NCBI RefSeq assembly: GCF_020525925.1
Contig: NZ_CP084876.1
Location: forward strand, 2,728,001 to 2,792,000
Reading direction: 5' to 3'
DNA from: Klebsiella quasipneumoniae subsp. quasipneumoniae
GTDB lineage: Bacteria; Pseudomonadota; Gammaproteobacteria; Enterobacterales; Enterobacteriaceae
Length of the DNA stretch: 64,000 bases
Below, in pieces: positions 8,997 to 15,524 of the stretch. Position numbers and translations under genes: made by a program. The stretch's first letter is position 1. Each line of letters opens with the position of its first letter. The notes under the pieces are model-generated. The model was not told the origin of the DNA. It searched no databases and worked only from the letters and a program-made list of their open reading frames with translations.

Positions 8997-9911
8997 TTAT
9001 CGTGTCCCCTTCGCGGGGACTAACTCATTATCGCTGCCCGGCAGCTGGCCTCCCGCTGACAGCGTCACCGGTATAAAATAGCGTACGTGATAGCGCTTCT
9101 CCTCTGCCTCTCCTCCTTCCGCATGACGGGTCATGAAGCATTCAATGTCATGCCCATCCCGACGGCTTACCCCCAGCGTTGGCAACTGTTCCAGATAGAG
9201 ATCGCTGGACAAACGGGCATAGCGTGACCAGCTGCCGTAGAATTCAACCCCCACATACAGCCCCGACCGGGTGGTCAACGCGGACGACGGCTTTCGCGCC
9301 TCGTGACAACCGACAAAGGCGTTAACCTCGACGTTAAGCTCATTTTGACTCGCTGCCGCGTAATCGGAGAGTATGGAAAGCGAACCGCCTCCAGCGGCGA
9401 AAAAACGGTCAACCTTTTGTCTGATAGCCGTCTTGGCGGTACTTTGCAACACCATATCCGACAGGCGCAGTTCATACTTCATCGGGTAGCCATAATAGAC
9501 CCGCTCCGGCAGGGAACAGATCCGAGCCAAAGGCAGGCTCTCATCATCCGTGGGGAATTTTTTTAACAGTTTTGCCGTGTCCCAGTGCGCCGCGCAGCGG
9601 TACTCCCGTGGCGAAAGCGAGAAACGTTTCTTAAACTCCCGGGAGAAGGTCTGCGGCGAATCGTAACTTAACTGCCAGGCTATGGCGGCGATCGGTTGCC
9701 GCGTTAAACGCAGACTGACCGCTGCGATGGTCAGCCGCCGCAGGCGAATATACTGCCCGATGGGTAACCGGCCATATTGATAAAACACCTCGTACACAAA
9801 CCGACGCGAATAGCCCATATACTGCGCCAGGTCATCGATCGCCGGGTTACAGTAGATATTATCCTCCAGCCACGCCAGCATTTTTAAATAGAGCATTTGC
9901 TTCATAAGCAC
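8997..9911 (-). CDS. AraC/XylS regulator, Rob-like architecture
   Basis: A 304-residue protein with its DNA-binding domain at the N-terminus (two helix-turn-helix motifs within residues 10-110, with the second helix region SPQTFSREFKKRFSLSPREYR). A GyrI/Rob-like effector-binding domain follows at about residues 125-295. This is the layout of Rob, not of classical AraC with C-terminal DNA binding. Several Met codons lie within the first six residues, so the start is uncertain by up to 15 bases. Targets are unknown. It is followed by the convergent otn operon. Confidence 0.8.
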   Translation of the reverse strand: MLMKQMLYLKMLAWLEDNIYCNPAIDDLAQYMGYSRRFVYEVFYQYGRLPIGQYIRLRRLTIAAVSLRLTRQPIAAIAWQLSYDSPQTFSREFKKRFSLSPREYRCAAHWDTAKLLKKFPTDDESLPLARICSLPERVYYGYPMKYELRLSDMVLQSTAKTAIRQKVDRFFAAGGGSLSILSDYAAASQNELNVEVNAFVGCHEARKPSSALTTRSGLYVGVEFYGSWSRYARLSSDLYLEQLPTLGVSRRDGHDIECFMTRHAEGGEAEEKRYHVRYFIPVTLSAGGQLPGSDNELVPAKGTR

Positions 9912-10215: not shown

Positions 10216-10827
10216 ATGACGAATTTTTTGATCAATATAAAAAATCACTATTTGCGAGTCGCTATTGCGGAGCTGGTGGATGAAGCGATGAAGACCTACG
10301 GGGGATCAGCATATCAGTTTTCTGAACAATGGGACCTGGAGTCGATAGCGCAATCTCAGGTGTTCTTCACGGAAATGGTGGCGGGAGAATGGTACCTGTG
10401 TCATGACCTGTTTCAGCATGCCCCAGAGCAATACACGCTTTTTATTTTCCAGGACAATGAACAAGCTACCGTCGAAGAGGGCTTACCCAACTGTCTGCGG
10501 CAGGCGGTGTTTATACCTCCCCATGCTCCCGTTCAGCGTCTTAAAGATGAGATACTCAGCGCGATTCAGCGCCCCTTATCTCCTCAGCATGACCCGGCCT
10601 TCAATCGGCTGCGGCGTTGTATCAATTGCGCCTGCAAGTCGGTCAGCGATGCGCAAACCAAAGTCATTTACGCGTTCAGTATTGGTCTGAGTCCGCATGA
10701 AGTTGCCGCGGCGCTAAAAATTAGCCACAAAACCATTCACTCGCATAAAAAGAATATTATGAACAAGTTCAATTTGCACAGCCGCCAGCAATTTAACAAC
10801 CTCGTAAAACTACTCGCCAGACGTTAA
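10216..10827 (+). CDS. LuxR-type HTH regulator (copy 1 of a paralogous pair)
   Basis: A 203-residue protein. The C-terminal LuxR/NarL helix-turn-helix spans about residues 138-195 (SDAQTKVIYAFSIGLSPHEV, then ISHKTIHSHKKNIMNKF). The N-terminal half has no response-regulator Asp pattern; it is a domain of unknown kind containing LFQHAPEQYTLFIFQ. A Cys-x-x-Cys (RRCINCACKS) precedes the HTH. The paralogue at 14776-15405 shares the start (MTN-IN), the FFTEM/LFTEM-GE-YLCH block, the CxxC and the HTH, but is only distantly similar overall. Its base composition is more AT-rich than its neighbours. Function unknown; similar Klebsiella and E. coli proteins control fimbriae or stress genes, but I do not assign that here. 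Confidence 0.8.
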   Translation: MTNFLINIKNHYLRVAIAELVDEAMKTYGGSAYQFSEQWDLESIAQSQVFFTEMVAGEWYLCHDLFQHAPEQYTLFIFQDNEQATVEEGLPNCLRQAVFIPPHAPVQRLKDEILSAIQRPLSPQHDPAFNRLRRCINCACKSVSDAQTKVIYAFSIGLSPHEVAAALKISHKTIHSHKKNIMNKFNLHSRQQFNNLVKLLARR

Positions 10828-10856
10828 TACAATCGTCATTATATTACCTCTGCAGA

Positions 10857-10976
10857 TTATCTTCTGGAACGGAAGACGTAGCGTCTTTTGCGTCTTTCCT
10901 GAATATAAGAAAGACCACTCCACAAAGAAATGACGGGACAAAAAATCAAACACAAAATAATAAATAAGTCGCTCAT
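10857..10976 (-). CDS. 39-residue single-span membrane protein, convergent partner of LuxR copy 1
   Basis: A short ORF starting at ATG 10976 and ending at TAA 10857-10859. It encodes an N-terminal hydrophobic stretch (residues 4-19, including LFIILCLIFCPVISLW), then SGLSYIQERRKRR and a strongly basic tail. A partial ribosome site (CAGG) lies 6 bases before the start. A homologue with the same plan and the same GLSY-(I/V)-x-x-RRK core lies at the same position beside the second LuxR paralogue (15402-15524). That conservation of sequence and of placement is the main evidence that both are real. The positive-inside rule suggests the N-terminus outside and the basic tail in the cytoplasm. Function unknown. 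Confidence 0.65.
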   Translation of the reverse strand: MSDLFIILCLIFCPVISLWSGLSYIQERRKRRYVFRSRR

Positions 10977-11374
10977 ATCAGACCTGAAAAAAGGAATTTA
11001 ACTTACGTTGATAATATGCATTTGCTTTTAATCAGGCAAGACCAGCATCTCTTTTTGAGAGCGGGCAATATAATGGCAGGATAATTCCTGGTGGCGAATG
11101 TTAACCGATAATTTAAGGCGGTAGACCAATACCGCAGGAGGAATGAGCGGCCTGTTTGCCCTTTTTTGCATTGGGAATGAGAAAATGATAGCTAAACCTC
11201 AGATTCCCTGTAGAGTGAAGGTAATCACAAAGTGAAGCTCCCGTTCCGCGTAGCGGACATCACGGTTGGTTAAATGTCATAAAAAACAGCCTCCCTTCTC
11301 CGAGGGTCTGGCCATACCTCCCTAAATACGCGCTGTGCGGACCATTACGCGCTGCCGCAGCGACCGGAATGATT
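10977..11374. other. Intergenic region upstream of blrP1
   Basis: About 400 bases that should hold the promoter of blrP1 and that of the small membrane gene. GCAGGAGGAATG near 11135-11145 looks like a ribosome site plus start but opens only a 30-codon frame with no recognisable feature. No clear terminator or operator was seen. Confidence 0.5.
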
Positions 11375-12592
11375 ATGCTAACCACCCTGATATACCGCAG
11401 CCAGGTTAATCCTGCCCGCCCGCCCACCGATCTCGACGCTTTAATTCATCGCGCCAGCGGGAAAAACATGCCTCTTGGCATCACCGGTATTCTGCTGTTT
11501 AACGGCCTGCAGTTCTTCCAGGTGCTGGAGGGAAGCGAGGAAGATCTTGAGTCGTTATTCCACGAGATACAGAGCGATCCGCGCCATCGCGACGTGGTGG
11601 AACTGATGCGCGACTATTCGGCCTACCGTCGTTTTCACGACACCGGGATGCGCCTGCTGGATCTTCGTCTTTTCGAAGCCGACAGCGCGCTGGAGGAGCT
11701 CCTGCGCTTTAGCTCGTTTGGGGTCACCGAGCCGGTCAACGACCGGATGTTCCGCCTGATTAGCGCCTTTATCGCCGACGGTGGGCGCTATTGTCTACCC
11801 GAGCCGCTGCAGCCTTCTCGCTGGACGATGATGCCTGCCCCGGCCACTGCTACGGCGCGCCACCTGCCCGATCAACCTTGCCAGTTTGCCCTGCAGGCCA
11901 TCGTCGAGCCGGCCACAAAGCGGGTCTCTTCCTTTGAAGCGCTGATCCGCAGCCCCACCGGCGGATCTCCTGTAGAGATGTTTGCCGCCATCCCGGCGGA
12001 GGATCGCTACCGTTTCGACCTTGAGAGCAAAGCGTATGCCTTCTCTCTCGCCGGTCAGTTACCGCTTGGTAAACACCAGCTGGCCATTAACCTGCTGCCC
12101 GGTTCGCTGTATAACCACCCTGACGCCGTAGGCTGGCTGATGAACAGCCTGCTGGCGGCCGGCCTCAGACCTGACCAGGTGCTGATAGAGGTTACCGAAA
12201 CGGAGGTGATCACCTGCTTTGACCAGTTCCGCAAGGTGCTCAAAGCGCTGCGCGTCGCGGGCATGAAGCTGGCCATCGACGACTTTGGCGCGGGTTACTC
12301 CGGCCTGTCGTTACTGACCCGCTTTCAGCCCGATAAAATCAAAGTGGATGCAGAGCTGGTGCGCAATATTCATATCAGCGGCGCCAAGCAGGCGATTGTC
12401 GCCTCGGTCGTGCGCTGCTGCGAGGATTTGGGCATCACGGTGGTGGCGGAAGGCGTCGAAACCCTGGAAGAGTGGTGCTGGCTGCAGTCGGTGGGCATTC
12501 GCCTGTTTCAGGGGTTCCTTTTCTCCCGACCGTGCCTGAACGGCATCGGGGAAATTTGCTGGCCGATAGCGCGTCAGGCCACGGATCTGTAA
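11375..12592 (+). CDS. blrP1: Blue-light-activated cyclic-di-GMP phosphodiesterase BlrP1 (BLUF-EAL)
   Basis: A 405-residue protein, the length of K. pneumoniae BlrP1. The N-terminal BLUF flavin photosensor covers residues 1-95, with Tyr7 (TLIYRSQ), Asn31 and Gln49 in the expected places. The C-terminal EAL domain covers about residues 165-400 with FEALIRS, NLLPGSL, EVTETEV, DDFGAGYSG, DKIKVD and EGVETLEEW, all consistent with active c-di-GMP hydrolysis. FAD captures blue light and activates the EAL dimer. I start at 11375, which gives the known N-terminus MLTTLIYRSQ, rather than at the ATG two codons earlier. It sits between the two LuxR paralogues, which is unlike the E. coli bluF-bluR setting. 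Confidence 0.95.
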   Translation: MLTTLIYRSQVNPARPPTDLDALIHRASGKNMPLGITGILLFNGLQFFQVLEGSEEDLESLFHEIQSDPRHRDVVELMRDYSAYRRFHDTGMRLLDLRLFEADSALEELLRFSSFGVTEPVNDRMFRLISAFIADGGRYCLPEPLQPSRWTMMPAPATATARHLPDQPCQFALQAIVEPATKRVSSFEALIRSPTGGSPVEMFAAIPAEDRYRFDLESKAYAFSLAGQLPLGKHQLAINLLPGSLYNHPDAVGWLMNSLLAAGLRPDQVLIEVTETEVITCFDQFRKVLKALRVAGMKLAIDDFGAGYSGLSLLTRFQPDKIKVDAELVRNIHISGAKQAIVASVVRCCEDLGITVVAEGVETLEEWCWLQSVGIRLFQGFLFSRPCLNGIGEICWPIARQATDL

Positions 12593-12612
12593 GGCCGCGG
12601 TAGGCGGCAGCG

Positions 12613-13125
12613 TCACTGCCAGTGGGGGAGCTTTTCGCCCAGCGCCGCCAGGGCGAAGCGCACCGCTTTCGCCACCACTGTCTCGCAGTCACCGGTAAAG
12701 CGCAGCCGTTGGGTTTCGATCTGGCCGCGAAAGTTCCAGGCAAACCATACCGTGCCGGCGGGGGTACCATCCTCTCCCCCCTCCGGTCCCGCATAGCCGC
12801 TGATGGCGATGGCGATGTCGGCCCCGGCTATCGCCAGCATACCGCTGGACATCTCCTTCACGCACGCTTCGCTGACAGCGCTGTGTTCCGCCAGGGTTTC
12901 CGCGCGCACCTGCAGCACATTGCGCTTGGCTTCATCGCTGAAGGTAACCACGCCGGTATCATAAAAGGCCGCGGTATCAGCCTGAGCGCAGAGCGCTGCC
13001 GCCAGATTGCCGCCGGTGCAGGATTCCGCAGTGGTGAGCCGCCAGCCGCGCGCGATAAGCGCGCGGGCCACCTCGGCGGTCAGTTGATGAGTATGTTGTG
13101 CGTCTTTATCGATCTCGTCAGCCAT
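12613..13125 (-). CDS. ydeJ: CinA C-terminal/PncC-like family protein, YdeJ type
   Basis: A 170-residue stand-alone CinA-C domain. The AESCTGGNLAAAL motif (about residues 33-45), the YDTGVVTFSDEAK block and the SGYAGPEGGEDGTPAGTV loop are visible. PncC members deamidate NMN; to my knowledge the E. coli YdeJ paralogue has not shown that activity, so the role here is open. It is convergent with blrP1 and 168 bases downstream of agsA with a terminator between, so it probably has its own promoter. Confidence 0.82.
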   Translation of the reverse strand: MADEIDKDAQHTHQLTAEVARALIARGWRLTTAESCTGGNLAAALCAQADTAAFYDTGVVTFSDEAKRNVLQVRAETLAEHSAVSEACVKEMSSGMLAIAGADIAIAISGYAGPEGGEDGTPAGTVWFAWNFRGQIETQRLRFTGDCETVVAKAVRFALAALGEKLPHWQ

Positions 13126-13243
13126 TCTGACTCCTCGCCGAATTTGAAAAGTATCACCGCCTCACTGCCCTGTTAACAGGATAGCATAGTGATTTCTCTC
13201 GTCGCCTGGAGGCCGTTTACGCCACCTTGAGTGGATAAAATAA

Positions 13244-13263
13244 AGGCCCGCAGCGCGGGCCTT
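13244..13263 (-). terminator. Rho-independent terminator of agsA
   Basis: On the minus strand AAGGCCCGCGCTGCGGGCCTTTATTTTA forms a 7-8 base-pair GC-rich stem with a short loop and a T-rich tail. It begins 30 bases after the agsA stop codon, on the expected strand. Confidence 0.8.
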
Positions 13264-13293
13264 GAAAGGAACTCCCTCGGCACAGAAGCGGAA

Positions 13294-13767
13294 TCACACT
13301 TTGTGTTCGATCACCCGCCCCTGGTTCTCAATGGCAATTTTGCGCGGTTTTTCGCTCTCGGGGATCTCCTGATGGATAGCGATTTTTAAGATCCCGCTCT
13401 CCAGCTGCGCCTGATTAATCTGGGCGTGTTCGGGAAGCGAAAAACTAAGCTGGAAATCAGCCCGGCGAATGCCTTTATAAATCCAGCCCTGGCTGTTTCC
13501 GGAATGATTGTCGGTTTGCGCGCGTTTACCGGTAATATGCAGATTACCGCCTACGGTCTCTATTTCCAGTTCATCATCTTTCCAGCCAGGCACGCTGACG
13601 CTGAGCAGGAAATTACTGTCATCCACTTTCTGTAAATCGTAGGCTGGTAAGGTCCCCACCGGCGTATCGCCCGTTAACTGGCTGAAAAGACGGTCGATAC
13701 GGTTAAAGCGATCGGCAAAAAGGGAATCAGCAAATACCGGGAGTGCTGACAAGGTTTTGAGTGCCAT
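13294..13767 (-). CDS. agsA: Small heat shock protein AgsA (Hsp20 family)
   Basis: A 157-residue ATP-independent holdase chaperone. The alpha-crystallin domain runs from about residue 40 to 140 (PAYDLQKVDDSNFLLSVSVP, then GGNLHITGKR), and the oligomerisation I-x-I motif is present in PRKIAIE near residue 145. The N-terminus MALKTLSALPVFADSLF resembles Salmonella AgsA more than IbpA/IbpB. AGGAGG lies 6 bases before ATG. That ribosome site is sequestered by a hairpin (13775-13796), and a sigma-32-like -35 box lies further upstream, so heat control at two levels is likely. Confidence 0.88.
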   Translation of the reverse strand: MALKTLSALPVFADSLFADRFNRIDRLFSQLTGDTPVGTLPAYDLQKVDDSNFLLSVSVPGWKDDELEIETVGGNLHITGKRAQTDNHSGNSQGWIYKGIRRADFQLSFSLPEHAQINQAQLESGILKIAIHQEIPESEKPRKIAIENQGRVIEHKV

Positions 13768-13774
13768 AATTAAC

Positions 13775-13796
13775 CTCCTGAATATCCATTCAAAAG
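13775..13796 (-). promoter_or_regulatory. fourU-type RNA thermometer in the agsA 5' leader
   Basis: In the minus-strand leader, CUUUUGAAU (13796-13788) pairs with AUUCAGGAG (13783-13775) across a GGAU loop, giving nine pairs. The UUUU run faces AGGA of the Shine-Dalgarno AGGAGG, including two U-G wobbles. This is the defining feature of fourU thermometers such as that of Salmonella agsA, which melt near 37-42 C. The pairing is read directly; the function is inferred from the family. Confidence 0.75.
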
Positions 13797-13854
13797 CTCA
13801 ACATGAAGGCAAGCATTGCTTGTCCGCTTTATAAAATAATAGCTAAAGCGCGTT

Positions 13855-13861
13855 TTTCAAG
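13855..13861 (-). promoter_or_regulatory. Sigma-32-like -35 element of agsA
   Basis: CTTGAAA on the minus strand matches the sigma-32 -35 consensus and lies 88 bases before the start codon. The expected -10 (CCCCATNT) is not well matched; the region at the proper spacing reads ATTATTTTAT, which could also serve sigma-70. Confidence 0.5.
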
Positions 13862-13925
13862 ACCTGAAATAAAAAATTTCTTCGTCAGTCACAGAAAGAA
13901 ATAACCAGGTCAGGTGGCAAAGTGA

Positions 13926-13945
13926 CCCCCGCCAGACGGCGGGGG
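13926..13945. other. GC-rich hairpin upstream of agsA
   Basis: CCCCCGCC-AGAC-GGCGGGGG, a perfect 8-base-pair stem in otherwise AT-rich sequence between agsA and the small ORF at 14254. No T run follows on either strand. It may be the 3' end of an unrecognised transcript or a structural element. Apart from this, 13862-14253 shows no gene I can support. Confidence 0.4.
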
Positions 13946-14253
13946 CTGGGGTGCTTCTGAGTCCCATAACTGATGCTGTTTAACATTCAATAAACAGAAG
14001 CGTCATGTATATATTACTTGTTCAAGGGGATGTCAACGCCCGAATCGCGCCCCCTCCCCCGTCGCCCTGCAATAGCGCCACGAGAAACGCGGTTCCCCTG
14101 CGGTCGTTTCGCCAACTGCGGCAGCCTCGACATCACTTTGGCCTCGCTGGCGCCAGCCGGAAGACCCTGGCGAAAATTTACGCCGCCAGGGAAGGAACCT
14201 TTCACCTCCCTCCGTGCCTAATAACCTGCATACGCACTTTCTGAGGCATCACT

Positions 14254-14358
14254 ATGACCGGCATTTTTATCTCCACCACCCTGTTCGCCCTCTTCGCGTC
14301 GATGTTGATCGGTCTGGGGATGGTATGGAAAGGCATCTCCAACAACCCGGATAACTAA
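14254..14358 (+). CDS. 34-residue predicted membrane protein
   Basis: ATG 14254 is preceded by GAGG at a spacing of 8 and opens a 34-codon frame ending at TAA 14356-14358. The peptide is one hydrophobic span (residues 4-25, with TTLFALFASMLIGLGMVW) followed by a short polar tail KGISNNPDN. A good ribosome site, a single clean span and a polar end argue for a real small membrane protein. I do not recognise the family, and it is not related to the two GLSY-type peptides nearby. Confidence 0.55.
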   Translation: MTGIFISTTLFALFASMLIGLGMVWKGISNNPDN

Positions 14359-14775
14359 TCCTTTTTGGACGCCGTTGCCAGTCACCTGAGGCAGCGGCGT
14401 GATAGCGCCCTCTACCGACATCCGGTCAGGACCACTTCTGCTTCCGCTCAGGCATTATTGACAAGAGTATGCCCTTGCCGAACCGTTTTTGAACAAATGA
14501 TTCATGCAATAAATACATCACTTGAATTAATACATTCCAATCCAGAATTAATGTTTGTTATATGTACAATTTAAGCAGTTTGTGCCAAATCACCGGCTAC
14601 ATCAGGGCAAAGCCCAAAATCAACACATTGATTTATATGCTTTTTAAAGTCTTTTCCAGATAAAGTCTCAAAAATGGATTTATTGATTTTATTAGCTATT
14701 AGAAATATCCTAATCCCATATACTGTAAATGCTCTCCCCCTTAAAAATATTAATATTTTGACAATCGGCATTACT
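14359..14775. other. Intergenic region before LuxR copy 2
   Basis: An imperfect inverted repeat with 10-base arms (14370-14399) follows the small ORF and could end its transcript, though no T run follows it. The rest is AT-rich and should hold the promoter of the gene at 14776. No ORF with a credible ribosome site was seen. Confidence 0.5.
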
Positions 14776-15405
14776 ATGACTAATATTTTTATTAATACTG
14801 AAAACATATTTCTTAATCGAGGTGTTTGTGAACTTCTTATCGAGATCGCAAAGGAAGAAAACATCTGTACACCTTTTTCCATTTTGCAATACTCACCAGA
14901 TACTCTCGGTCAGATAGATATGCTGTTTACGGAAATGACGACCGGTGAACATTACCTATGCCACCCGGTTTTCAAAAAAATCCCCGAACAAACGTCTATT
15001 TTTATTTTCGTTCCCACCGATAGTGCTGTGCAAGTTGATCGGATACCGTATTGTCTACGTGATGCTACTTTTATTAGTATCAACACCGGATTGCACCGTA
15101 TAAAAAATCAGATTGCGAAACATCTCATGGAGTCAACAGCGTCAATTGATGGTCGCCAGGTAAAAGACAGCAGACGCTGTGTAAAATGCCCTCGATTAAC
15201 ATTGACCAAATCACAACTTTATATTATCGATGCGATCAGAACGGGAATGAATAATCAGCAGATAGCGCAAGAACTGGGTATCAGCCATAAAACGGTCTTT
15301 TCCCATAAAATCAATATCATGAAAAAATTCCAAATAGCCACCAAACAAGAGTTAACGAAATTCTCATCCGTTGCTCTTGCGCTGTCCTCAGGAAGGATCG
15401 GTTAA
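14776..15405 (+). CDS. LuxR-type HTH regulator (copy 2 of a paralogous pair)
   Basis: A 209-residue protein if started at ATG 14776. The frame is open to 14674, but the paralogue begins with the same MTN-(F/I)-x-IN, so I chose 14776. The C-terminal LuxR-type HTH covers about residues 135-195 (KSQLYIIDAIRTGMNNQQIA, then ISHKTVFSHKINIMKKF). A Cys-x-x-Cys (RRCVKCPR) precedes it as in copy 1. The N-terminal domain lacks a receiver signature. Markedly AT-rich codon use compared with yedK and blrP1 suggests acquisition or relaxed selection. Its 3' end overlaps the convergent tiny gene by 4 bases. Confidence 0.8.
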   Translation: MTNIFINTENIFLNRGVCELLIEIAKEENICTPFSILQYSPDTLGQIDMLFTEMTTGEHYLCHPVFKKIPEQTSIFIFVPTDSAVQVDRIPYCLRDATFISINTGLHRIKNQIAKHLMESTASIDGRQVKDSRRCVKCPRLTLTKSQLYIIDAIRTGMNNQQIAQELGISHKTVFSHKINIMKKFQIATKQELTKFSSVALALSSGRIG

Positions 15406-15524
15406 CGTCGAGTTTTGTTAAATCGCATCTTCATTTTTCTTCGATCTTTAACATAGGAGAGACCAAAAATTAATGATGTCAATAATAATACTACCGCCAG
15501 GGATAATAATAGCCAGTTACTCAT
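15402..15524 (-). CDS. 40-residue single-span membrane protein, convergent partner of LuxR copy 2
   Basis: ATG 15524 to TAA 15402-15404. The peptide starts MSNWLLLSLAVVLLLTSLIF (one membrane span), then GLSYVKDRRKMK and a basic tail ending in TRR. AAGG lies 6-7 bases before the start. It matches the 39-residue peptide at 10857-10976 in length, topology and the GLSY-x-x-x-RRK core. Its stop codon overlaps that of the LuxR gene on the other strand, so the two transcripts are complementary at their 3' ends. Function unknown. Confidence 0.65.
   Translation of the reverse strand: MSNWLLLSLAVVLLLTSLIFGLSYVKDRRKMKMRFNKTRR

Follow-up and report, generated by a model that had tools for sequence, protein, structure and literature searches.

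What do two tiny genes do at the ends of two LuxR-type regulator genes in a Klebsiella chromosome? The window analyzed here, a stretch of 64,000 nucleotides of Klebsiella quasipneumoniae subsp. quasipneumoniae (contig NZ_CP084876.1, positions 2,728,001 to 2,792,000), carries two such regulators on the plus strand, kbvR (10216..10827) and a paralogue without a given name, here called LuxR2 (14776..15405). Each converges with a minus-strand open reading frame (ORF) for a small membrane protein, peptide 1 (10857..10976; 39 residues) and peptide 2 (15402..15524; 40 residues). A preliminary description had placed these four ORFs correctly in position and strand, and had read them as a duplicated module in which the peptides work with the regulators. 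We find that both tiny genes are real, protein-coding and constrained, and that their membership in one family with RmpD is well supported by sequence comparison. Relatives of the RmpD capsule switch would accordingly reside in ordinary Klebsiella chromosomes, and KbvR, a regulator of capsule and outer membrane, gains a candidate partner gene.

RmpD is reported to be the driver of hypermucoviscosity, and the rmpADC locus is stated to have been found in K. pneumoniae only (PMC10294653). The protein, given as 49 to 58 residues long (PMC10294653, PMC7512549), reportedly has its C terminus in the cytoplasm, binds Wzc in two-hybrid and co-purification experiments, prefers the non-phosphorylated Wzc octamer and yields longer, more uniform capsule chains (PMC10294653). 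Its gene is described as part of an operon under RmpA control, and rmpD alone, without rmpA, is reported to restore hypermucoviscosity (PMC7512549); a plasmid copy, RmpD2, is discussed in PMC12435677. KbvR is reported to raise capsule (PMC12435677, PMC11649230) and to regulate outer-membrane proteins, OmpK36 directly (PMC9241633), and in the available excerpts of the papers on KbvR the convergent peptide does not come up. In the open-licence literature no paper was found that mentions KPN_two_small, the NCBIfam family (NF033853) to which both peptides belong. Where this literature names both RmpD and KbvR, the excerpts at hand draw no connection between them, and 'small membrane protein' beside RmpD is there a description of RmpD itself. 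The link between chromosomal peptides, RmpD and KbvR is new here, no such link having been found in the open-licence literature.

The tiny genes encode constrained small membrane proteins

Against NF033853 ('small membrane protein'), peptide 1 scores 58.2 bits and peptide 2 58.3 bits (E 4e-16; cut-off 33). Constraint was estimated as pairwise dN/dS by the Nei-Gojobori method with the start codon excluded, and came to 0.09-0.10 for orthologues of peptide 1 (four sequences, one identical pair being undefined), 0.07-0.17 for those of peptide 2 (four sequences) and 0.05-0.18 for a third peptide, from the tandem class described below (three sequences). Pooled differences at codon positions 1, 2 and 3 numbered 24/4/63 for peptide 1 and 29/19/98 for peptide 2, that is, mostly at third positions. 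Because of the family match and the constraint on amino acids, both are regarded as genes; this coding-constraint check had been proposed in the preliminary description, and its view that the tiny genes are real holds.

Over 40 aligned columns the identity of the two peptides is 36%, and both contain the core GLSY-(I/V)-x-x-RRK, as had been noticed earlier; plain BLASTP of one against the other aligns 19 residues only. The Pfam search gave no match above cut-off for either, and PF28118 is known from precomputed labels on relatives, where it is attached to peptide 1-like and peptide 2-like proteins. After the membrane helix, the pattern [S/A/T]-[Y/F]-x-x-[D/E/N]-x-[R/K], chosen after inspecting the peptides, is present in 95 of 99 family members. 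The entry text of NF033853 reads 'small membrane protein' alone, and the links to KbvR-like regulators and to RmpD come from the present analysis.

RmpD belongs to the same family

The survey covered 20 genomes that the tool places in one genus, Klebsiella/Raoultella (the contig title of one gives Raoultella ornithinolytica), and found 104 NF033853-family peptides, 2 to 7 per genome. As a control, small ORFs were searched for in 101 sources; this gave 99 peptides, in agreement with the number expected from earlier place lists. One of the 104 lies on contig C3 of the K. pneumoniae type-strain genome (G001) and scores 52.9 bits for NF033853 in the genome search and 52.7 bits by NCBIfam. It is flanked by two LuxR-type genes, and the stretch matches, at 100% identity, a plasmid record in which rmpA and rmpC are annotated; this 59-residue peptide has the hydrophobic N-terminal part, basic tail and position reported for RmpD. 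A profile built from the other 98 peptides gave it 28.7 bits, against a maximum of 12.8 for 1999 scored shuffles in which helix and tail were shuffled separately, keeping the composition of each. A protein search with it returned 18 relatives, of which one is named RmpD by NCBI and 14 small membrane protein; four carry PF28118. Taken together, the NF033853 score, the leave-out profile, the RmpD-named relative and the common PF28118 label place RmpD, the KbvR peptide and the LuxR2 peptide in one family.

Besides family membership, RmpD and peptides 1 and 2 are alike in their N-terminal membrane helix, their basic tail and the LuxR-type gene adjacent to each. They differ in arrangement, rmpD being on the same strand directly after rmpA in a mobile locus, whereas peptides 1 and 2 are convergent with their regulators. 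Binding to Wzc is known for RmpD alone, and RmpA stands outside the KbvR subfamily.

Small size, a single hydrophobic stretch, a basic end and several copies per genome would also suit hydrophobic toxins of type I toxin-antitoxin pairs. The names of the relatives, however, are small membrane protein or RmpD and not toxin, RmpD is reported to be expressed from plasmids in living cells (PMC7512549), and the window holds no Rfam antitoxin RNA, although an undescribed RNA would escape this search; we regard a toxin function as extremely unlikely.

Family peptides recur beside KbvR-like regulators

In the 20 genomes, matches to a profile of KbvR-like regulators at E 1e-8 numbered 60, of which the 35 scoring at least 128 bits are treated here as KbvR-like regulators and the remaining 25 as weaker LuxR matches. 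A family peptide lies within 200 bases of 23 of the 35 regulators, convergent in 7 cases (gap 24-57 bases) and upstream on the same strand in 16 (gap 140-197 bases); two more have a peptide at 1.0 and 1.9 kb, and the other 10 have none within 5 kb. None of the 25 weaker matches in the 20 genomes has a family peptide within that distance. Counted from the peptides, 25 of the 104 have a KbvR-like regulator within 5 kb and 79 do not. The closeness of peptides to KbvR-like regulators is far above chance, recurrent but not exclusive, and occurs in two geometries, with rmpA-rmpD as a third. In the regulator tree, full support unites the 16 tandem regulators in a single clade, in which all 16 are paired with a peptide, and the convergent ones are scattered through the sister group, with losses. 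The tandem-class peptide sits directly after a gene pair for a sensor kinase and a response regulator. The two regulators with a peptide at 1.0 and 1.9 kb belong to two genomes, one of them Raoultella, and lie downstream of the peptide (L154 and L155); counterparts of this peptide elsewhere (L186, L189 and L192) are without such a regulator.

These counts bear on the preliminary proposal that the peptides are tied to the regulators and would be met again on searching beside other LuxR genes. As regards closeness the proposal stands; the further step, to a dedicated partner or inhibitor, is not supported, because most peptides are without the regulator and more than a quarter of the regulators are without the peptide. 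We therefore judge it unlikely that each peptide serves as a membrane partner or inhibitor of the adjacent regulator, tethering it or relaying an envelope signal. Such a role would fit the recurrent attachment to one regulator subfamily, the strict pairing of the tandem clade and the existence of another class convergent with an AraC-type regulator (12 loci in 12 genomes, see below). Besides the many unpaired members, the evidence against it includes a direct search of up to 700 bases around 11 further regulator genes without a close peptide, which found none (best 9.2 bits). In the K. pneumoniae type strain, kbvR is interrupted by an in-frame TAG (G001, C1 2238716-2239324), yet the convergent peptide 1 is intact. 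Moreover, the reported target of RmpD is Wzc, and RmpD is reported to be sufficient without rmpA (PMC10294653, PMC7512549).

The geometry of the window could instead point to an effect of RNA, in which overlapping convergent transcripts would form duplexes damping kbvR or LuxR2. The gap between kbvR and peptide 1 is 29 bases, and LuxR2 and peptide 2 overlap by 4 bases (15402-15405), which include both stop codons. A terminator-like hairpin for kbvR (10870..10890, plus strand) lies within the peptide 1 gene, so that the transcripts of kbvR and peptide 1 would overlap; it was found by consensus match alone, and such matches numbered 10 in the region against 6.3 expected. Constraint acts on amino acids, however, and the Rfam search of the window gives the FourU element only. 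The preliminary description had offered complementary 3' mRNA ends as one way for the two genes to work together, but that these are the essential feature is not supported, because in 16 of the 23 close pairs peptide and regulator share a strand, with the peptide upstream. An RNA effect is considered very unlikely.

Most family members stand apart from these regulators

Of the 79 unpaired places in the genus, 69 were fetched with their neighbourhoods, as were 11 places outside it, and neighbours were determined by crude ORF calling. One orphan class lies at ugd, a capsule-side precursor gene (12 loci in 12 genomes); in 10 of these a nucleotide-sugar epimerase gene is present as well. Three further classes have no evident link to polysaccharides: one beside an aldehyde dehydrogenase gene (13 loci; annotated patD in one record), one beside an APC permease gene (12 loci), and the AraC-convergent class, of which three genomes lie outside the genus. 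The last is a second recurrent regulator-peptide arrangement, with a gap mostly of about 30 bases or less (L197, L201, L211, L214, L215, L217, L220, L221, L222, L235, L241 and L244). The recurrent neighbours of the unpaired places indicate that regulators are frequent beside the peptides and not the rule.

Across the taxonomic family, 16 of 295 genomes have an NF033853-family match at E 0.001 and 10 have one over the cut-off, with 4 of each within the genus, which indicates that the peptide family is rare outside the genus. The 12 non-genus genomes with a match contain no KbvR-like regulator over 68 bits. In 14 control genomes there was no family match at E 0.001; at the lax limit of E 10, some match appeared in 13 of the 14, but no score exceeded the cut-off. 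In one locus (L243 3449-3571, genome G304) a family peptide is followed after 45 bases by an EAL-domain gene.

Small membrane proteins in the style of MgrB and SafA are common; these two are single-pass membrane peptides, each shorter than 70 residues, and modulate a larger membrane protein. The likeness of peptides 1 and 2 to them is one of size and style. The family could on this model consist of stand-alone modulators of envelope stress or membrane enzymes, acting on varied targets, with the regulators merely controlling or accompanying them. Such a view agrees with most members being orphans in several unrelated, conserved places and with the tandem class following directly on a sensor-kinase and response-regulator pair. 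By itself it leaves the closeness to one regulator subfamily without explanation, and the one characterised member is reported to work on capsule assembly (PMC10294653). We hold this account to be possible, if on the doubtful side.

A proposed role in the envelope

Our preferred explanation, put forward tentatively and at somewhat less than even chances, is that peptides 1 and 2 are chromosomal RmpD-like membrane peptides, some members of the family lying beside a regulator, which dock on a larger envelope protein, with a polysaccharide co-polymerase as first candidate. The peptides are predicted to be single-pass inner-membrane proteins, with the core motif [S/A]-Y-x-x-[D/E]-R-[R/K] located at the membrane edge, between a short N-terminal helix and a basic tail that is probably cytoplasmic. 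As with RmpD, their most likely mode of action would be to bind a larger protein of the envelope and alter its activity; Wzc, for capsule, or Wzz, for O antigen, would be the first target to consider. Some peptides may have stayed next to a NarL/FixJ-type regulator, in the way that rmpD adjoins rmpA, which would let regulator and effector be inherited together, and in the first pair of the window this regulator would be KbvR, which raises capsule. The membrane topology, the control of a peptide by its neighbour and the action on Wzc or Wzz are all put forward here as predictions.

Several observations weigh against this explanation. An RmpD-like function for peptides 1 and 2, with Wzc binding and chain lengthening, is an analogy, and a common family does not prove a common target; the orphan classes without a visible polysaccharide link, the AraC-convergent one included, advise caution at just this step. 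The intact peptide beside the interrupted kbvR of the type strain also speaks against it. RmpD itself is divergent: its best pairwise relative is an orphan peptide, its tail is longer (59 residues in all in L224, against 39-40), and its NF033853 score may reflect RmpD-like sequences in the family seed. RmpA (L224) does not reach E 1e-5 with the KbvR-subfamily profile and has a very long branch, and is not a recognisable member of that subfamily. The idea that RmpD is closer to the regulator-linked peptides than to the orphans was considered and set aside: in alignments to RmpD the convergent peptides do no better than the rest (mean z 5.9 against 6.5), and the tree joins RmpD with the KbvR peptide weakly (87/74, 41 columns, long branch).

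If RmpD is one branch of a family native to Klebsiella, it becomes possible to test where a major virulence trait came from and what the chromosomal relatives of RmpD normally do. One might go further and suppose that a native set of RmpD-like peptides, 2 to 7 per genome and under different regulators, tunes the chain length of capsule and O antigen by binding co-polymerases, with rmpADC as a mobile offshoot, and that native copies could explain mucoid isolates without rmp genes. This wider proposal is speculative, and we rate it as rather improbable. Such isolates are an open puzzle; in one study, BLASTn and tBLASTx searches of them with rmpD gave nothing, and it is doubtful that such searches would pick up peptides that are so divergent and about 40 residues long.

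The two regulators

The first regulator is 99% identical to two proteins named KbvR of K. quasipneumoniae by NCBI (P0044 and P0053) and agrees with KbvR in both sequence and neighbourhood; it is the published capsule and virulence regulator, and LuxR2 is a separate paralogue (34% identity over 194 residues, E 5e-41). Another in-frame ATG lies upstream for LuxR2, at 14674 (243 codons), and 14776 is the start that aligns with that of KbvR. KbvR is a regulator of the NarL/FixJ type, in which a receiver-like domain at the N terminus is combined with a LuxR (GerE) domain for DNA binding. Pfam finds the GerE domain alone in both regulators; the autoinducer-binding N-terminal domain of acyl-homoserine-lactone LuxR receptors was not found. 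A structure model of KbvR (mean pLDDT 75, 14 sequences) resembles FixJ, VpsT and RcsB, with query TM-scores mostly of 0.3-0.6, and these matches indicate that the N-terminal half is receiver-like rather than autoinducer-binding. At what we take to be the position of the phosphorylated aspartate of receivers, KbvR has the stretch FTEM, which suggests that this half is a pseudo-receiver.

The two modules had been described as a duplication. A recent tandem duplication was rejected, because the regulators have diverged to the identity given above and because KbvR groups in the tree with a plasmid regulator (100/99) and not with LuxR2. The tree joins LuxR2 with the regulator of G009, possibly as a long-branch effect. 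The plasmid regulator (L002 4001-4612) is carried by a K. quasipneumoniae plasmid, perhaps a phage-plasmid, together with phoH, YafO-type toxin and integrase genes, and has no peptide. LuxR2 appears frameshifted in CP125156.1, a 5.37-Mb K. pneumoniae record that is filed as a plasmid and looks chromosomal. This may be an assembly error, because the AraC and AgsA genes are also split there; several split genes in the record suggest such errors.

Genes around and between the modules

Divergent from kbvR is an AraC/Rob-type regulator gene (8997..9911, minus strand; HTH_18 and GyrI-like domains), which accompanies the convergent LuxR-peptide module and adjoins the LuxR gene also in L149, L150, L159 and L160 (39-41% identity). 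Between the modules lie blrP1 for a BLUF-EAL protein (11369..12592, plus strand) and agsA for a small heat-shock protein of the Hsp20 type (13294..13767, minus strand), the latter preceded by a FourU thermometer RNA (13761-13825, minus strand; Rfam score 93 bits, gathering score 60). Both genes had been recognised in the preliminary description, the chaperone as thermosensed; its suggestion that the whole forms one environment-sensing island did not stand up as a conserved arrangement. The full array (AraC, kbvR, peptide, blrP1, pncC-like, agsA, ynaM, LuxR2, peptide) occurs in the window, L001, G001 and G020, all close relatives, and in G014 the right part remains, LuxR2 and its peptide included, and kbvR was not found at E 1e-8. 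At the more distant loci, G009 and G017 keep the AraC gene, the LuxR gene and the convergent peptide, and G011 and G012 keep AraC and LuxR genes without the peptide; in the stretches examined, none of these four has blrP1 or agsA. Between agsA and LuxR2 the window also encodes a 34-residue membrane peptide of the YnaM/YnfT family (14254-14358, plus strand; NF041477, 65 bits), which is present as well in L001, L146, L147 and L148.

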